Of a stretch of 64,000 nt of DNA, positions 9,738-46,798 are shown piece by piece. Position 1 is the stretch's first letter; each line of letters opens with the position of its first letter. The notes under the pieces are model-generated. The model saw nothing but the letters and a program-made list of their open reading frames with translations, searched no databases and was not told the origin of the DNA. Both the position numbers and the translations under genes were made by a program. The DNA is from Sinomonas humi (lineage in GTDB: Bacteria > Actinomycetota > Actinomycetes > Actinomycetales > Micrococcaceae): assembly GCF_000802235.1 (NCBI RefSeq), contig NZ_JTDL01000087.1:1-64000 (forward strand). The letters run 5' to 3'.

Positions 9738-9841
9738 CGTTTCGGGTACAGATAATCCCCTCATTCCCCGTTTCGGGTACGCCAACTCGGCGCTATCTGT
9801 ACCCGAAACGTCTCCGAAGGGGATTATCTGTACCCGAAACG
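9738..9841. repeat. Nested inverted-repeat array (TTTCGGGTAC family) between grpE and dnaJ
   Basis: Four related units. Forward copies lie at 9738-9760 and 9769-9790, reverse copies at 9791-9810 and 9819-9841. The outer pair is a perfect 23-bp inverted repeat built on TTTCGGGTACAGATAATCC. The inner pair shares a perfect 12-bp inverted repeat (9769-9780 with 9799-9810), and the first inner copy has the alternative tail GCCAACTC. All tails point inward. It lies inside the heat-shock transcript, 50 nt after grpE and 35 nt before dnaJ, and would fold as a long RNA hairpin there. Related copies lie at 24924-25143. Confidence 0.9.
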
Positions 9842-22220: not shown

Positions 22221-22276
22221 CGTCCCTCGAAGGCATAACCGTTGATCGTGCCGGACGGTTATGCCCCCGAGGGACG
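22221..22276. repeat. Two-step perfect hairpin related to the 44.8-46 kb array
   Basis: Outer arms CGTCCCTCG (22221-22229) and CGAGGGACG (22268-22276) enclose inner arms GGCATAACCGT (22232-22242) and ACGGTTATGCC (22255-22265), all perfect, with a 12-nt loop. AAGGCATAACCGTTG and GATCGTGCC inside it recur, with one change, in each unit of the large array. It lies in the 295-bp gap between pabC and mmsA. It has no T-tract, so a simple intrinsic terminator is not supported; the rest of the gap shows nothing else. Confidence 0.8.
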
Positions 22277-23939: not shown

Positions 23940-24869
23940 ATGAGCGAGAACGGAGCCGCGAGCGGGCGGATCGCCTTCTTGGGCCTCGGCCACATGGGTG
24001 CTCCCATGGCGGCCAACCTCGTCAATGCCGGGAAGAAGGTGGTCGGCTTCGACCCGTTCCCGGCGGCCGCCGAGGCCGCCCGCACCCTCGGTGTGGAGGT
24101 CGCGGAGTCCGCTGCCGAAGCGGCGGAGGGCGCCGCCGTCGTCCTCACCATGCTGCAGACCGGCCAGCAGGTCCTCGACGCCTACCGCGGCCGCGACGGG
24201 AAGCCCGGTCTCCTCGCGGGGGCCGCGCCCGGGACGCTGTTCCTGGACTGCTCGACGATCAACGTCGTAGAGGCCCGCGAGGCTGCGGAGGCAGCGGTAG
24301 GCGCGGGACACAGGTTCGTCGACGCGCCTGTCTCGGGCGGCGTCGTCGGGGCCGAAGCTGCGACCCTGACGTTCATGGTCGGGGCCGAGGACGCGGACTT
24401 CGCCGAGGTCGAGCCGCTTCTGGCGCTCATGGGCAAGCGGATTGTGCACTGCGGGGGCCACGGCCTCGGTCAGGTGGCCAAGGTGTGCAACAACATGATC
24501 CTCGGCGTCTCGATGATCGCAGTGTCCGAGGCGTTCGTGCTCGGCGAGAAGCTGGGCCTCAGCCACGAGGCGCTGTTCGACGTCGCCGCTCATGCCTCGG
24601 GCCAATGCTGGGCCCTCACGACCAACTGCCCCGTGCCCGGGCCGGTGCCGACCAGCCCGGCGAACCGTGACTATCAGCCGGGCTTCGCTGGCACCCTGAT
24701 GGCGAAGGACCTCCGGCTCGCTCTCCAGGCGATCGAGCACGCCGGCGTTGCCGCACAGATGGGTCCGCTCGCCTCGAAGATCTACGACGAGTTCGCAGCG
24801 GGCGACGGCGCGCGGCGCGATTTCTCGGGCATCATCACGGACATCCGCGACCGTTCCTCAAGCACCTGA
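23940..24869 (+). CDS. mmsB: 3-hydroxyisobutyrate dehydrogenase
   Basis: A 309-residue beta-hydroxyacid dehydrogenase. The N-terminal Rossmann fold has FLGLGHMGAPMAANL (residues about 12-26), the substrate loop is DAPVSGGVVGAEAATLT, and the catalytic lysine is in GQVAKVCNNMILG. It oxidises 3-hydroxyisobutyrate to methylmalonate semialdehyde, the substrate of MmsA immediately upstream. A GGGAG ribosome site overlaps the end of mmsA. Downstream lie C-rich sequence and an inverted repeat array. Confidence 0.93.
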   Translation: MSENGAASGRIAFLGLGHMGAPMAANLVNAGKKVVGFDPFPAAAEAARTLGVEVAESAAEAAEGAAVVLTMLQTGQQVLDAYRGRDGKPGLLAGAAPGTLFLDCSTINVVEAREAAEAAVGAGHRFVDAPVSGGVVGAEAATLTFMVGAEDADFAEVEPLLALMGKRIVHCGGHGLGQVAKVCNNMILGVSMIAVSEAFVLGEKLGLSHEALFDVAAHASGQCWALTTNCPVPGPVPTSPANRDYQPGFAGTLMAKDLRLALQAIEHAGVAAQMGPLASKIYDEFAAGDGARRDFSGIITDIRDRSSST

Positions 24870-24923
24870 CCCCTGTCCCCGCCCCTGACCTCGACCCCTG
24901 ACCCCGACCCCTCCCCCACTTTT

Positions 24924-25143
24924 CGTTTCGGGTACAGATAATCCACCCCAAATCCGTTTCGGGTACAGATAATCCACCCCGAATCCCTTTCGGGTACAGA
25001 TAATCCGTCCAAGGGTTCTCCCAAGCTGAGAACATCCGTACCCGAGATGTGCCAGAGCGTGATTATCCGTACCCGAAACGAAAAAAAAGGGGATTATCTG
25101 TACCCGAAACGAAGAAAGAGGGGGAGTATCCGTACCCGAAACG
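24924..25143. repeat. Inward-facing TTTCGGGTAC repeat array between mmsB and marR
   Basis: Forward copies are at 24924-24944, 24955-24975 and 24986-25006. Reverse copies are at 25060-25080, 25091-25111 and 25123-25143, with a degenerate reverse copy near 25032-25050. The unit is TTTCGGGTACAGATAATCC (reverse copies often have G for A after GTAC). All tails point toward the centre, as at 9738-9841. Two convergent genes end on either side (24869 and 25160), so each transcript would carry a long hairpin at its 3' end. The 24870-24923 stretch is only C-rich direct repeats of CTGACCCC type. Confidence 0.9.
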
Positions 25144-25159
25144 AAAAAGGGCACGGGGG

Positions 25160-38828: not shown

Positions 38829-38924
38829 GGAGGTGACCAACAAACGAGCCCGCACCCGCAGGAGGTGACCAACGAACGAGTTCGCACCCGCCGGAGGTGA
38901 CCAACAAACGACGACGGCGGGCCC
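38829..38924 (+). repeat. Three 32-bp tandem repeats
   Basis: GGAGGTGACCAACAAACGA (second copy with G for A) begins at 38829, 38861 and 38893, each followed by a GCCCGCACCC-like spacer. The exact 32-bp period, with few changes, indicates recent amplification. The third unit runs into the hairpin at 38916. It occupies most of the 247-bp gap between the transporter gene and the aldo/keto reductase gene. Confidence 0.9.
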
Positions 38925-42166: not shown

Positions 42167-43786
42167 ATGAAAAACCCTCGAAAATGGTGGCGCGCCCGGC
42201 CCGTTGCGTCACAGATTCTCGTGTGGACGCTGTGCATCCTGTTGCTCACGGTCGCCCTCGGCGGCTTCGTCACGAGCCAGATCACCCGCCAAGTCCTCGA
42301 CGATCAATACCGCCTCCGCGCCCTCGGAATTGCGACCACCGTTGCCCAGATGCCGGAGATCGTCTCTGACCTTGAAGCGAAGGACCCCAACCACCAGATC
42401 CAGGCCCTCGCCGAACAGGTGAGGCTCCACGCGCAGCCGGACTACGTCGTCGTCACTGACCGGAACGGCGTCCGCTATTCCCATCCGAACCCCTCGCTCA
42501 TCGGCAAGCGCCTCGAAGAACCGGTCGCGGTCTTGGACGGCCAGACTCACCTCGGAACGGATCCCGGAAGCCTTGGCAATTCCGCGAATGCGAAGGCACC
42601 GATCTTCGATTCGCACGGCAACGTCATCGGCGAAGTCTCGGTGGGCATCCTCGAGGCCAACGTGAACACGGCGATCGGTCGCGAAGCCGGGCTCATCGTC
42701 GGGTATTCAGCTCTGGTGCTGCTCATCGGAGCCGTCAGTTCGCTCCTGCTCGGCAGGGCGATCAAGCGTGCGACGTTCGGGCTCGAACCGGCGGAGATCG
42801 CCTCGCTCCTTCAAGACCGCGAGGCGCTCCTCCACGGGATCAAGGAGGCCATGATCGGGCTCGACGACAACGATCGCGTCACCGTCATCAACAACGAGGC
42901 CCGGCGCCTCCTCCAGCTCGAAGGAAACGCGTTGGGGCAGAAGATCGACGAGCTTCTGCCCGGCGGACGGCTCCGCGACATCCTCACGGGCAGTGAGACT
43001 GGCCCCGACCAGGCGGTGCTGACCGATGACGCACTGCTCGTGGCGAACCGGATGCCTGTGAGCGTGGGCGGCCGGAGCATCGGGGCCGTCGTCACGCTAC
43101 GCGACCGCACCGAGGTCGAAGGTCTCGTGCGCAACTTGCGCTCGACGGAGGGGCTCATGGAGGCACTGCGCGCTCAAGAGCACGAGTACGCGAACCGGCT
43201 GCACGTGGTGAGCGGCCTCCTCGAGCTCGGCGACGTGGATCAGGCGCGCAACTTCATCTCAGGCATCGCGGACACCTCGCGCTCTCTCGGCGAGGGCCTG
43301 CGTGGCCGCGTCGAACCGCCCGAGCTCGCGGCCCTCATCCTCGCGAAGGTCACGGTGGCGGGTGAGCAGGACGTCGAGCTGACAGTGACCGACGATTCGC
43401 AGCTCCGCCAACCGTTCCTCGCCACGCAGGACCTCGTCACGATCGTCGGCAACCTGCTCGACAACGCGGTCGACGCCGTCGTGGGCCAGCCCGCACCCCG
43501 CGAGGTTACCCTCCAGCTCGACGACTCGTCCGGGATCTTCATCTCGGTGACCGACAACGGCCCCGGCGTCCCCGCCGAGGCGATCGACGCCGTCGTACGC
43601 GACGGCTACACCACGAAAGTGCCGCGCCCCGGCATGCGTCGCGGCATTGGGCTCGCGCTCGTGGCGCGGATCGTGCACCGCGCGGGTGGCACGATTGACG
43701 TGTTCGCCGGACCCGGCGGACGCTTCGAGGTATGGGTGCCGGCACCGGCGCCGACCCATCAGGCGGAAGGAGCTGCGGCTCTATGA
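42167..43786 (+). CDS. CitA/DcuS-type sensor histidine kinase
   Basis: A 539-residue kinase. Two transmembrane helices (residues about 14-36 and 175-195, IVGYSALVLLIGAVSSLLLG) flank a periplasmic PDC/CACHE-like sensor domain. A cytoplasmic PAS domain (about 220-320) and a kinase core follow. The phosphoacceptor His is in AQEHEYANRLHVVSGLLELG and ATP-binding boxes are LLDNAVDAV, DNGPGVP and RRGIGLALV. This family senses extracellular carboxylates such as citrate and C4-dicarboxylates. It overlaps its response regulator by 4 nt (ATGA). Confidence 0.93.
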   Translation: MKNPRKWWRARPVASQILVWTLCILLLTVALGGFVTSQITRQVLDDQYRLRALGIATTVAQMPEIVSDLEAKDPNHQIQALAEQVRLHAQPDYVVVTDRNGVRYSHPNPSLIGKRLEEPVAVLDGQTHLGTDPGSLGNSANAKAPIFDSHGNVIGEVSVGILEANVNTAIGREAGLIVGYSALVLLIGAVSSLLLGRAIKRATFGLEPAEIASLLQDREALLHGIKEAMIGLDDNDRVTVINNEARRLLQLEGNALGQKIDELLPGGRLRDILTGSETGPDQAVLTDDALLVANRMPVSVGGRSIGAVVTLRDRTEVEGLVRNLRSTEGLMEALRAQEHEYANRLHVVSGLLELGDVDQARNFISGIADTSRSLGEGLRGRVEPPELAALILAKVTVAGEQDVELTVTDDSQLRQPFLATQDLVTIVGNLLDNAVDAVVGQPAPREVTLQLDDSSGIFISVTDNGPGVPAEAIDAVVRDGYTTKVPRPGMRRGIGLALVARIVHRAGGTIDVFAGPGGRFEVWVPAPAPTHQAEGAAAL

Positions 43787-44454
43787 TCCGGACCCTCGTG
43801 GTCGACGACGACTACCGGGTGGCGCGAATCCATGCCGCGCACATCGGGCGGGTTCAGGGGTACGAATGCGTCGGCGAGGCGCACACGGCCGCGGAGGCGC
43901 GCGACGCCGTCGCCCGCCTCGAGCCCGACCTCCTGCTACTCGACGTCTACCTGCCCGACGAGGACGGGATCGCCCTGCTGCGCTCCCTCCGCGAGACGCA
44001 CGACGTCGACGCCATCATCATCACCGCCGCCCGCGACGTCGCGACCGTGCGGGCCGCGATGCGCGGCGGTGCCGTCTACTATCTCGTCAAACCGTTCGGC
44101 TTCGACCAGCTCACCGCGCAGCTCGCGGCCTACCGGCGGTGGCGCACCGAGGCGGAGTCGCGGCTCATTTCGGGCCAGAACGACGTCGATGCGCTCTTCG
44201 CGGCGCGGCACGCACCGACGCCGGCACCCACCTCGCGGGGCCTCCCGCCGACCATGCAGAAGGTGCTCGACGCCGTTCGCTCGGCTGAGCGGCCACTCGG
44301 CGCGCAAGACGTCTCGGAGCTCATCGGGATCTCGCGCCCGACCGCGCAGCGCTACCTCAGCGAGCTCGAGCGCAAGGGACGGCTCGAGCTCACGCTCGAG
44401 TACGGGACCACGGGGCGCCCGGTCAACACGTACGTGGTGCGCCCGGGAGCGTGA
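43783..44454 (+). CDS. CitB/DpiA-type response regulator
   Basis: A 223-residue regulator. The receiver domain has LVVDDDYRVAR, the phosphoacceptor Asp in LLLDVYLPDEDG and a conserved Lys in LVKPFGFDQL. The C-terminal helix-turn-helix has QDVSELIGISRPTAQRYLSEL. It works with the preceding kinase and most likely activates the divergent importer operon. After its stop the 1.7-kb non-coding repeat region begins. Confidence 0.94.
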   Translation: MIRTLVVDDDYRVARIHAAHIGRVQGYECVGEAHTAAEARDAVARLEPDLLLLDVYLPDEDGIALLRSLRETHDVDAIIITAARDVATVRAAMRGGAVYYLVKPFGFDQLTAQLAAYRRWRTEAESRLISGQNDVDALFAARHAPTPAPTSRGLPPTMQKVLDAVRSAERPLGAQDVSELIGISRPTAQRYLSELERKGRLELTLEYGTTGRPVNTYVVRPGA

Positions 44455-44510
44455 CGGGGGCCGGGGGCCAGGGGCCAGGGGCGCGGGGCTGCTGGACTGT
44501 TTCGGGTACG

Positions 44511-44671
44511 CGAACTCACGCCCCACCCCCTTCCGGGTACACCAACCCACGCCCCACCCCCTTCCGGGCACACCAACCCACGCCCCACCCCCTTCCGGGC
44601 ACACCAACTCACGCCCCGCCCCCTTCCGGGTACACCAACCCACGCCCCACCCCCTTCCGGGTACACCAAGA
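44511..44671 (+). repeat. 31-bp tandem repeat array with TTYCGGGTAC head
   Basis: Units start at 44531, 44562, 44593, 44624 and 44655, an exact 31-bp period, preceded by a variant at 44511 (TTCGGGTACGCGAACTC). The unit is TTCCGGGTACACCAACC followed by CACGCCCCACCCCC. The head and the CCAACTC tail echo the 9769-9790 copy of the palindromic family, but here all copies run in one direction. There are no spacers, so it is not a CRISPR array. 44455-44510 is only G-rich sequence. Confidence 0.92.
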
Positions 44672-44754
44672 TCGACGGAGCCAAGGGCATGCGACAGTCG
44701 GGCGCCCGATTGGCGTCCGGCACAGCCACAGCGGCACTGCATGACCGTCCCGGA

Positions 44755-45770
44755 CCGCCACAACCGTCGCTGAGAGGCATTACCGTTGCTGCGCAGCACC
44801 GATCCTGCCTCTAACCGGCGGTCTTGCCGCGAAGCACCGATCATGCCGACAGACAGTGACCGTGCGGGCGGACGAACGGTATAGGAAGAAGCCGGTCACG
44901 TACCGCCGGAACTGGATGTTGCTGCCAGAACTGTGGCGGCGGCAGAGGGGTCAGGCGCAAAAGAGGGGGTCGTGAGCGGCGGAAGTGCAGCTTGCCGGCG
45001 GAACCAGGTCGCACGCCGTCCCCAACCGCCACAACCGTCGCTAGAAGGCATTACCGTTGCTGGCCAGCACCGATCGTGCCTCTAACCGGCGGTCTTGCCG
45101 CGAAGCACCGATCATGCCGACAGACAGTGACCATGTGGGCGGACGAACGGACAGGTAGAAGCCGGCCACGTACCGCCGGAACTGGATGTTGCCGGCGGAA
45201 CTGAATCTTGCCGGCGGAAGTGCAGCTTGCCGGCTGAACTGCGGCGGCGGAGGGGGTCAGCCGCAAAAGAGGGGGTCCTGACCGGCAGAAGTGCAGCTTG
45301 CCGGCGGAACCAGGGCGCACGACCGTCCGGGACCGCCACAACCGTCGCTAGAAGGCATTACCGTTGCTGGGCAGCACCGATCCTGCCTCTAACCGGCGGT
45401 CTTGCCGAGAAGCACCGATCATGCCGACAGACAGTGACCGTGCGGGCGGACGAACGGTACAGGAAGAGGCCTGTCACGTACCGGCGGAACTGGATGTTGC
45501 CGGCTGAACTGAATCTTGCCGGCAGAACTGTGGCGGCGGAGGGGTCAGCCGCAAAAGAGGGGGTCCTGACCGGCAGAAGTGCAGCTTGCCGGCGGAACCA
45601 GGGCGCACGACCGTCCCCAACCGCCACAACCGTCGCTGAGAGGCATTACCGTTGCCGGGCAGCACCGATCGTGCCTCTAACCGGCGGTCTTGCCGCGAAG
45701 CACCGATCATGCCGACAGACAGTGACCGTGCGGGCCGACGAACGGTGCAGGTAGAAGCCGGTCAGGTACC
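44755..45770 (+). repeat. Four-copy tandem array of a ~290-bp non-coding unit
   Basis: Copies begin at 44755, 45026, 45333 and 45621 (spacings 271, 307, 288). Each starts CCGCCACAACCGTCGCT and has a well-conserved ~150-bp front: AGGCATTACCGTTGCTG, CAGCACCGATC-n-TGCCTCT, CGGCGGTCTTGCCG, GAAGCACCGATCATGCCGAC and a GACGAACGGT end. A variable back part is made of GCCGGCGGAACTG-type subrepeats and AGCCGCAAAAGAGGGG. AGAGGCA and TGCCTCT, and GCTG/CAGC inside them, can pair as a hairpin. Spacings are not all multiples of three, so no protein frame is kept across units. Confidence 0.9.
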
Positions 45771-46005
45771 GCCGGAACTGAGGCTTGCCGGCGGAACTGT
45801 GGCGGCGAAGGGGGGCAGCCGCAAAAGAGGGGATCCCGACCGGCGGAACTGAGGCTTGGCGGCGGAACTGTGGCGGCGAAGGGGGTCAGCCGCAAAAGAG
45901 GGGGTCCCGACCGGCGGAACTCAGGCTTGGCGGCGGAACTGCGGCGGCAGAGGGGGTCAGCCGCAAAGGAGGGGATCCCGACCGGCGGACGTGAGGCTTC
46001 GCGGC
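45771..46005 (+). repeat. 71-bp tandem subrepeats at the end of the large array
   Basis: The landmark AGGCTT recurs at 45781, 45852, 45923 and 45994, a period of 71 bp. The unit includes GGCGGCGGAACTGTGGCGGC, GGGTCAGCCGCAAAAGAGG and TCCCGACCGGCGGAACT. It equals the back part of the ~290-bp unit, amplified on its own. 46006-46126 holds no recognisable feature. Confidence 0.9.
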
Positions 46006-46126
46006 GGAGTTGAGGTGAAACGGCGGCGGCGAGCCAACCGGCGGGTCAGAAGCGAGGGTTCCCAAGGCCAAGCAGGGTCCCCCGCGCCCAGCAGACGCCC
46101 AAGCCCGGCCCTCACCGAGCCCCGTC

Positions 46127-46726
46127 TCACCAGGTGCGGCGGCTCGCCGAGCGAAGTATCTGCCTCCGGTTCCTCACAGCCGCGTGCGTCCGCCCGATCT
46201 TGGCCGCGATCTCGGCGAGCGAGAGGTCCGCGTTGAGCACGAGGTCCTCCTCCTCTGGCGACCAGGGCGCGCGGTGGCGTTCGTCGTCGGCCGTTGCACG
46301 GTTCCGCCTCCGGGGCCGCGCTTCATCCAGTTCCTCCCCACCGTTCTCGGCCCACCACGCGTCACCGGGCGGGAGCACCCAGGTAGGGCCGAGCGTCGTG
46401 GCGAGCGCGTCCTGCTCGAGTTCGGGGAGCCGCCCCGCCTGTTCCCGCCGTCGCTGGCGGAGGAGCCACACACCGAGGGACCGCTCGGCAGGAGTGATGA
46501 TCCCGCCGGTCTGCGGAAGGCGGCCATTGGCGGATTTGAACTCGGCGACGGCGGAGAGGCGCCGCTGGAACTCGGGGCGAAGTACGACGGCGGAACCGCG
46601 CACCCGCGCTGGCGGCGTCACTGAGGAACCTGGCTCCGAAAGCTCCACCGCCGCCGCTTCAGGCACGCCAGCGAGCTCGCGCAATTGCATCGCGAGTTCA
46701 CGCAAGACGTGGGGTTCCAGAGTCAT
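46127..46726 (-). CDS. Helicase-associated (HA)-like plus Myb/SANT-like DNA-binding protein
   Basis: About 199 residues. The middle part RRLSAVAEFKSANGRLP, then ERSLGVWLLRQRRREQAGRLPELEQ (in parts) and LATTLG resembles the HA domain found in actinobacterial proteins. The C-terminus APWSPEEEDLVLNADLSLAE followed by IAAKIGRTHAAVRNRRQILR resembles a Myb/SANT-type helix-turn-helix. The frame is open to 46798, but the MFS terminator lies at 46754-46785, so the start at 46726 is chosen. It borders the large repeat array. Function unknown; a DNA-binding role is inferred. Confidence 0.65.
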   Translation of the reverse strand: MTLEPHVLRELAMQLRELAGVPEAAAVELSEPGSSVTPPARVRGSAVVLRPEFQRRLSAVAEFKSANGRLPQTGGIITPAERSLGVWLLRQRRREQAGRLPELEQDALATTLGPTWVLPPGDAWWAENGGEELDEARPRRRNRATADDERHRAPWSPEEEDLVLNADLSLAEIAAKIGRTHAAVRNRRQILRSASRRTW

Positions 46727-46753
46727 CCCTTCGAGATTAGCCCCCTCACGAAC

Positions 46754-46785
46754 AAAAAAGGGGCCCAGTTGGTGCCGGGCCCCTT
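46754..46785 (-). terminator. Rho-independent terminator of the MFS gene
   Basis: AAGGGGCCC (46777-46785 read on the minus strand) pairs with GGGCCCCTT (46758-46766), a 9-bp stem with a 10-nt loop, followed on the minus strand by a run of six T. It begins 13 nt after the stop codon at 46799. Confidence 0.92.
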
Positions 46786-46798
46786 CATTGTTCGCCAT

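Follow-up and report, generated by a model that had tools for sequence, protein, structure and literature searches.

Gene-end repeat families in Sinomonas and a partly decayed tandem array that may derive from their local amplification

Interspersed intergenic repeats at gene ends are a well-known general kind of element, and small repeats of this kind are usually single palindromes or modular elements. REP/BIME elements are extragenic palindromes that occur in many copies at gene ends, with alternating REPs and RAYT transposases, and the DNA uptake sequences of Neisseria number well over a thousand copies. Inverted pairs of these uptake sequences have been listed as predicted terminators (PMC3049150; this source and the two below are cited from extracts). 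In S. pneumoniae, the BOX, RUP and SPRITE repeats are intergenic, form stem-loops, are enriched between convergent genes, are often clustered and are limited to close relatives, and SPRITE, which lies near the 3′ ends of genes, may have been co-opted as a terminator (PMC3049150). In mycobacteria, the main intrinsic terminators are described as hairpins without a U-tail that follow the stop codon within 50 bp, and a paper in the reference list of the same review reports, by its title, that a U-tract is required by the mycobacterial polymerase (PMC12288462).

The window analyzed here is a stretch of 64,000 nucleotides from Sinomonas humi (contig NZ_JTDL01000087.1, positions 1 to 64,000), in which a response regulator gene on the + strand (43783–44454), encoding a receiver domain and an IclR-type HTH, adjoins with its 3′ end a long repetitive interval. 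The convergent gene on the - strand (46127–46798) has a weak “Helicase associated” match, its 26.6 bits falling short of the 28.4-bit cut-off, and the stop-to-stop interval between the two (44454 to 46127) measures 1672 bp, most of it repetitive. An earlier note, made from the letters of the window, had described positions 44755–46005 as a structured, non-coding tandem array of four units followed by shorter 71-bp ones. The unit starts at 44755, 45026, 45333 and 45621, with spacings of 271, 307, and 288 bp, were reproduced, and so was the trailing 71-bp array (45768–46008, 3.4 copies, 91% matches). However, the repeats begin before 44755, with a 31-bp array at 44503–44669 (5.4 copies, 93%), so that the order within the interval is the 31-bp array, the four units, and the 71-bp array. 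The array is a mosaic of two short-unit repeat families, here called A (19-bp units facing inward around a hairpin) and B (19- or 71-bp units), beside a third family, C, at 44503–44669, and each of the three is also found at gene ends elsewhere in the genus.

Unit 1 (44755–45025) combines a family A hairpin module with family B units behind it, unit 2 (45026–45332) carries extra 19-bp B units, and unit 4 (45621–45868), which follows unit 3 (45333–45620), merges into the 71-bp array; none of the four is assigned a strand. The 71-bp B array, built of 19-bp B units and the box AAGGGGGTCAGCCGCAAAAGAGGGGGT, is placed on the - strand and is C-rich there, and the family C array, of CGGGTACACCAACCCACGCCCCACCCCCTTC units, is placed on the + strand, where it is C-rich and G-poor. 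The + strand, which is that of the upstream gene's transcript, has 91 C vs. 26 G at 44500–44665, and the GC skew is -0.46 at 44500–44699 and +0.30 at 45800–45999. The C-rich strands therefore face both incoming transcripts, the one on the right being the - strand, that of the downstream gene's transcript. The front module is conserved, as had been claimed, with about 10 of its first 113 alignment columns varying and large indels in the remainder, and AGCACCGATC-n-TGCC occurs twice in each unit; a 19-bp period is visible in the front and back parts of the unit alike. The hairpins proposed for it survive only in part: only units 1 and 4 retain the complete AGAGGCA/TGCCTCT stem, units 2 and 3 reading AGAAGGCA instead, and one GCTG/CAGC pair is broken in unit 4. 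The argument that the spacings break any reading frame fails for 288, which is a multiple of 3, so that spacing alone cannot rule out coding. The array ORFs examined nevertheless look non-coding: codon scores were negative (-0.29 to -0.51) for all four to which they were applied, compared with 0.24 to 0.30 in three of the four neighboring genes, although the neighboring gene at 46127–46798 is also slightly below zero (-0.02). A Pfam search of two of the array ORFs gave no match, and the array as coding sequence was rejected. A tRNA-linked element was likewise rejected, as the 64-kb window contains no tRNA gene.

Family A, to which the front module of the array belongs, has the core GGCATAACCGTC, and in its preserved copies this core recurs every 19 bp up to a 10-bp gap, after which GACGGTTATGCC recurs every 19 bp, with a fixed + to - offset of 22 bp around the hairpin centre. 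Among motif matches with ≤2 mismatches in 316.5 kb of sequence, much of it selected for containing family A-type motifs, same-strand steps of ≤60 bp were 19 bp in 40 cases, 38 bp in five, and six other lengths once each, and + to - steps were 22 bp in 19 cases, 41 bp in four, and 60 bp in one. The order - then + did not occur within 60 bp anywhere in the 316.5 kb, and five Markov resamplings yielded zero offsets of 19 and 22 bp, against the 40 and 19 observed. The array arms in the window still follow this plan, with drift. A well-preserved copy lies at 22232–22265 between two codirectional genes (fold z -4.0).

Family B is a direct repeat, CCGGCGGAACTG, with a period of 19 or 71 bp, the 71-bp unit arising from the 19-bp repeat and an inserted box. 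An inverted partner is absent from 10 of its 11 loci, and wherever the flanking genes are codirectional, as at four of the loci, AGTTCCGCCGG reads on the strand opposite to both. Family C repeats TTTCGGGTAC at a period of 31 or 32 bp, which account for 90 and 68, respectively, of 163 same-strand steps. In two genomes with 46 clusters, 12 clusters show a single orientation and 31 of the 34 two-sided ones run + then -; the same order holds in 8 of 11 two-sided clusters of the window genome and G008, the exceptions being L261, L265, and L270. Within the window, such arrays lie at 24924–25148 between convergent genes (+++ then ---) and at 9739–9840 (++ then --). A C-rich short repeat of the CCTGACC type (24864–24912) is found at and just past a stop codon, ahead of the former. 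In L265 and L270, on contigs C52 and C115 of the window genome, C arrays and an intervening second repeat lie near contig ends, and family C repeats may have broken the assembly there.

The arrays differ in their number of units and contain central hairpins, with the additional units placed outside these. When spacers from the two opposite arms were compared, they resembled each other no more than spacers from separate loci did (0.43/0.45, 0.49/0.45, and 0.40/0.38 for family C, 0.37/0.40 for family A), suggesting that pairing is kept in the cores only, and a long hairpin formed by whole arms was rejected for the spacers. On the other hand, neighboring spacers of the same arm are more alike than opposite-arm ones in family C of G001 (0.74/0.43) and of the window genome (0.61/0.40), not in that of G002 (0.49/0.49), and the same excess is seen in family A. 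The arms thus seem to grow separately by duplication, with only the cores held constant. Although core identity is partly imposed by the search motif, several bases past the C core and outside that motif are also conserved. Read in the inward sense, C exceeds G in the C spacers (0.39/0.23, 0.40/0.32, and 0.35/0.24).

The Sinomonas arrays resemble BOX, RUP, and SPRITE (PMC3049150) in being short, intergenic, and capable of stem-loops, in their enrichment between convergent genes, in family clustering, and in their restriction to close relatives, and their variable unit counts recall the variable number of inner modules in BOX, although here the additional units fall outside the central hairpin; however, the Sinomonas arms differ in being phased tandem arrays, mostly inward, with spacers unrelated between loci. 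Family C is similar to the Neisseria uptake sequences in that its core measures about 10 bp, is frequently inverted, and lies at gene ends (PMC3049150), but it stands in tandem at a 31/32-bp phase and is far less numerous (58 tandem matches in the window genome). Like the I-shaped terminators of mycobacteria, the Sinomonas hairpins, as putative terminators, lie close behind stops and have no U tract; the extract on the mycobacterial terminators makes no mention of a shared repeat sequence or of arrays (PMC12288462). Family A is like REP/BIME in consisting of palindromes that stand outside genes, near their ends, and occur in many copies, and unlike it in having tandem arms at a fixed phase instead of alternating REPs. 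A RepRanger table lists REP candidates for an Arthrobacter (PMC12306157, extract). Y1_Tnp (PF01797, the RAYT-type transposase) was found in none of 15 Sinomonas genomes, with the same search positive in 5 of 14 control genomes, and REP/RAYT elements were rejected for this reason. Two inward, phased tandem arms with a constant core and free spacers are unlike REP, BIME, and BOX elements as far as these are known. The earlier statement that no named element matches holds as far as tested: no Rfam model reaches its gathering score in 44400–46200, and searches for such repeats among open PubMed Central papers listed none with a title or opening of the abstract that describes one in Sinomonas.

In sampled stretches of genomes, to which all placement and orientation figures refer, no A, B, or C array was found inside a called gene (70 bp being allowed at gene ends), genes having been called by a simple codon-usage script that missed some; at L238 and L239 an A array extends into the end of a called gene. 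The gaps with family A are convergent in 14 cases, codirectional in 10, and divergent in one, compared with 22/74/53 in gaps without A (Fisher p 2e-5 for convergent gaps), and those with family B are 7/4/0 against 29/80/54 (p 0.002), the background gaps for A and B being drawn from stretches picked for having arrays. The A locus totals differ with clustering distance (26 loci, 25 gaps, and 31 clusters). For family C, in 40 stretches of two genomes, the counts are 18/21/1 with and 10/33/22 without arrays, an enrichment in convergent (p 0.001) and a depletion in divergent gaps (p 7e-5). The sole divergent A locus, L218 (12.6 kb), was kept in the counts as called, although immediately ahead of it there ends an open + frame of 550 codons (codon score -0.06). 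Between codirectional genes, 18 of 22 C arrays lie closer to the upstream stop than to the start that follows, three clusters at stretch ends having been left out (sign test p 0.004; median 22.5 bp to the upstream stop vs. 139 bp to the next start), and A arrays do so in 8 of 9 (p 0.04).

A search with the array itself in 15 Sinomonas genomes gave matches in four, the window genome included. Of 11 Sinomonas genomes, four carry the tandem pattern of family A, compared with none of 186 other Micrococcaceae genomes in one sample, its reversed control giving one match. Its hairpin, with three mismatches allowed, occurs in 8 of 15 Sinomonas genomes (control 0), with nine places in the window genome and 11 in G014, although some of these matches (G005, G010, and G011) deviate in the two arms and could represent other palindromes; in a sample of the class it was found in one of 148 genomes, namely the window genome. 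The family B pattern with one mismatch is present in 9 of 15 genomes, with more than two matches only in G012 (9) and G014 (21), and its reversed control gave scattered matches in four genomes. Family C is the commonest, its tandem pattern being found in 13 of 15 Sinomonas genomes (control 0/15), with 84 matches in G001 and 96 in G014. The exact C 13-mer has 23 matches in the window genome, and among 58 Micrococcaceae genomes of other genera it matched three times in two genomes, which does not exceed the reversed control with its 11 scattered matches. The plasmid and phage records searched with 44740–46010 gave no match, the exact family A hairpin pattern was absent from viral contigs, and a plasmid, phage, or viral origin was rejected accordingly.

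The same gene end could be compared in nine Sinomonas genomes. In S. susongensis, whose response regulator has 92% identity to that of the window, the same gene pair is separated by 32 bp between stop codons, compared with 1672 bp here, indicating that this gene pair can do without the array. At the end of the response regulator gene, the window genome has families C, A, and B, S. gamaensis has A, G014 has B, and ASV322 has an inverted 31–32-bp array of a different sequence; S. susongensis has none, and inspection by eye revealed none in two S. atrocyanea records, S. albida, or ASV486, the last of which has a GC-rich hairpin behind the response regulator stop. Given this turnover, the array is more likely a recent gain here than a loss in S. 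susongensis. The array had also been described as standing beside a two-component system, and the response regulator gene does adjoin the repeats, but the association is probably incidental, as S. susongensis has the same neighbors without the array.

The idea of a structured RNA array at this locus was not supported, since stem changes in the units are uncompensated on the other side. The four window modules have fold z-scores of -2.5, -0.5, -1.2, and -1.0 on the + strand, and unit 1 has -2.3 on the other strand, while four preserved A elements, chosen by hand, fold strongly (-4.0, -3.6, -7.9, and -3.0). Covariation is modest in 30 A centres, and in the window units pair-breaking changes are unmatched. 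In the A centres, whose arms in this set were partly selected by the search pattern, 90.6% of cells are paired vs. 87.6% in shuffles (0/500 as high), the covariation score is 0.156 vs. 0.112 (0/500), and cells changed on both sides number 10 vs. 4.8 (2/500); the number of double-change pairs (346/500 shuffles as high) and the pair types (170/500) do not exceed the shuffles, and no clear excess of pairing was seen in the five inner position pairs. In 44400–46200 the best Rfam match had 25.4 bits (E 0.57), below its gathering score of 45, and a known RNA family was rejected.

On this evidence we tentatively favor, at somewhat below even probability, the reading that the array is a locally amplified and partly decayed mosaic of Sinomonas gene-end repeats, whose intact A and C elements are putative 3′-end boundary modules. 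The amplified palindrome suggested earlier thereby survives in outline, the front module being a decayed copy of the palindromic element A multiplied with B units. Intact A and C elements, for which we infer a terminator role, would act at the 3′ boundary of genes, where the hairpin, met from either direction, would halt RNA polymerase between neighbors, perhaps assisted by C-rich RNA ahead of the hairpin in incoming transcripts. Outer units would have been added to each arm separately by tandem duplication, through slippage or unequal recombination, and at 44755–46005 one composite would have been multiplied about fourfold before its hairpins drifted. With its hairpins drifted, the copy at this locus is probably dispensable. 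The evidence fits gene-end modules in that the elements lie behind stops and point inward, preserved A copies form a stable central hairpin, C units have C in excess of G in the inward sense, and C-rich strands at this locus face both incoming transcripts. Several results speak against this reading: the response regulator gene ends without an array in S. susongensis and two S. atrocyanea records, opposite-arm spacers are no more similar than spacers from separate loci, double-change pairs and pair types stay within the shuffles, some C clusters are one-sided or break the + then - order, family B mostly lacks an inverted partner, terminator-like sites at the locus number two against a shuffle mean of 1.5, and a title reports a U-tract requirement of the mycobacterial polymerase. 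A Rho signal was also considered, with the C-over-G skew alone in its favor, and was rejected: Rho of M. tuberculosis is described as recognizing purine-rich sequences (PMC12288462), which makes it less likely that a relative would use a C-rich one. The elements could instead be tolerated interspersed repeats or minisatellites without function, which spread or arose in the genus, were amplified by slippage, and survive only behind stops since promoters and genes select against repeats. We regard such repeats as nearly as likely as the terminator-like reading, since they explain turnover and placement nearly as well. That array presence turns over at the response regulator gene end among nine Sinomonas records speaks for them, and the greater likeness of same-arm spacers (family C of G001 and of the window genome, not of G002) is what local duplication predicts; for BOX, RUP, and SPRITE, too, the enrichment between convergent genes has been read as a possible sign of mobile, parasitic elements (PMC3049150). 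Functionless repeats are harder to reconcile with the fixed 19- and 31/32-bp phase, kept mostly inward at loci with unrelated spacers, with a core that is held, also beyond the searched motif, while the spacer is not, and with the covariation in the A stem.

The conserved core and free spacer would also be expected of binding arrays for a sequence-specific DNA-binding protein of the nucleoid or of gene boundaries, with the core as putative site and the spacer setting the helical phase. A length of 31–32 bp corresponds to about three turns of B-DNA, which makes the C period of 31 or 32 bp the best support for protein binding, and the spacers of opposite arms show no pairing; however, the 19-bp period of A does not correspond to an integral number of turns and the A centre has paired changes, so that we consider binding arrays unlikely. 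A related proposal, which we hold to be quite improbable, is that phased inward core arrays (TTTCGGGTAC at 31–32 bp, GGCATAACCGTC at 19 bp) mark many Sinomonas gene ends and are read, as DNA or nascent RNA, by a dedicated factor as a two-sided boundary, with core families swapped between species and the position kept. That differing array families stand behind the response regulator gene in four of nine Sinomonas genomes might suggest a cis-regulatory or otherwise functional RNA specific to the neighboring two-component system, but arrays also lie behind many other genes, S. susongensis has the gene pair without one, Rfam gives no match above its gathering score, and the hairpins here are decayed, all of which make such an RNA highly improbable. 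What gives the families their interest is that several of them follow one plan, with a constant core, free spacers, and a fixed phase at gene 3′ ends, where A and most of C point inward. Should they act as terminators, they would illustrate the way a GC-rich genome makes bidirectional gene boundaries and how these are replaced between species; should they be functionless, they would be a clear example of minisatellites growing only where gene ends tolerate them. Either way, the array in the window is a decayed local amplification and modest on its own.

Some further observations concern the surroundings of the arrays. A gene of the AbiEi_4 antitoxin type is bracketed by family A arrays in L214:2278–3609 (contig C69 of the window genome) and in L250:2745–4050 (G013), and an AbiEi_4-like gene just under the cut-off adjoins a B array in G014 (L231). 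A DUF559 search found 50 places in 15 genomes, and none of the three in the window genome is at an array locus; the two A-bracketed genes look orthologous by eye, and a general DUF559/AbiEi link was not supported. At about 4.0–6.4 kb of L221 (G014), three family A elements with near-identical centres are grouped around a gene that, by eye, resembles a transposase. Finally, a 32-bp tandem repeat (GGAGGTGACCAACAAACGAGCCCGCACCCGCA, 2.6 copies) at 38829–38911 of the window has AGGTGACC and GCACCC in common with the inverted array of ASV322 (L034), and the two possibly represent a fourth family.
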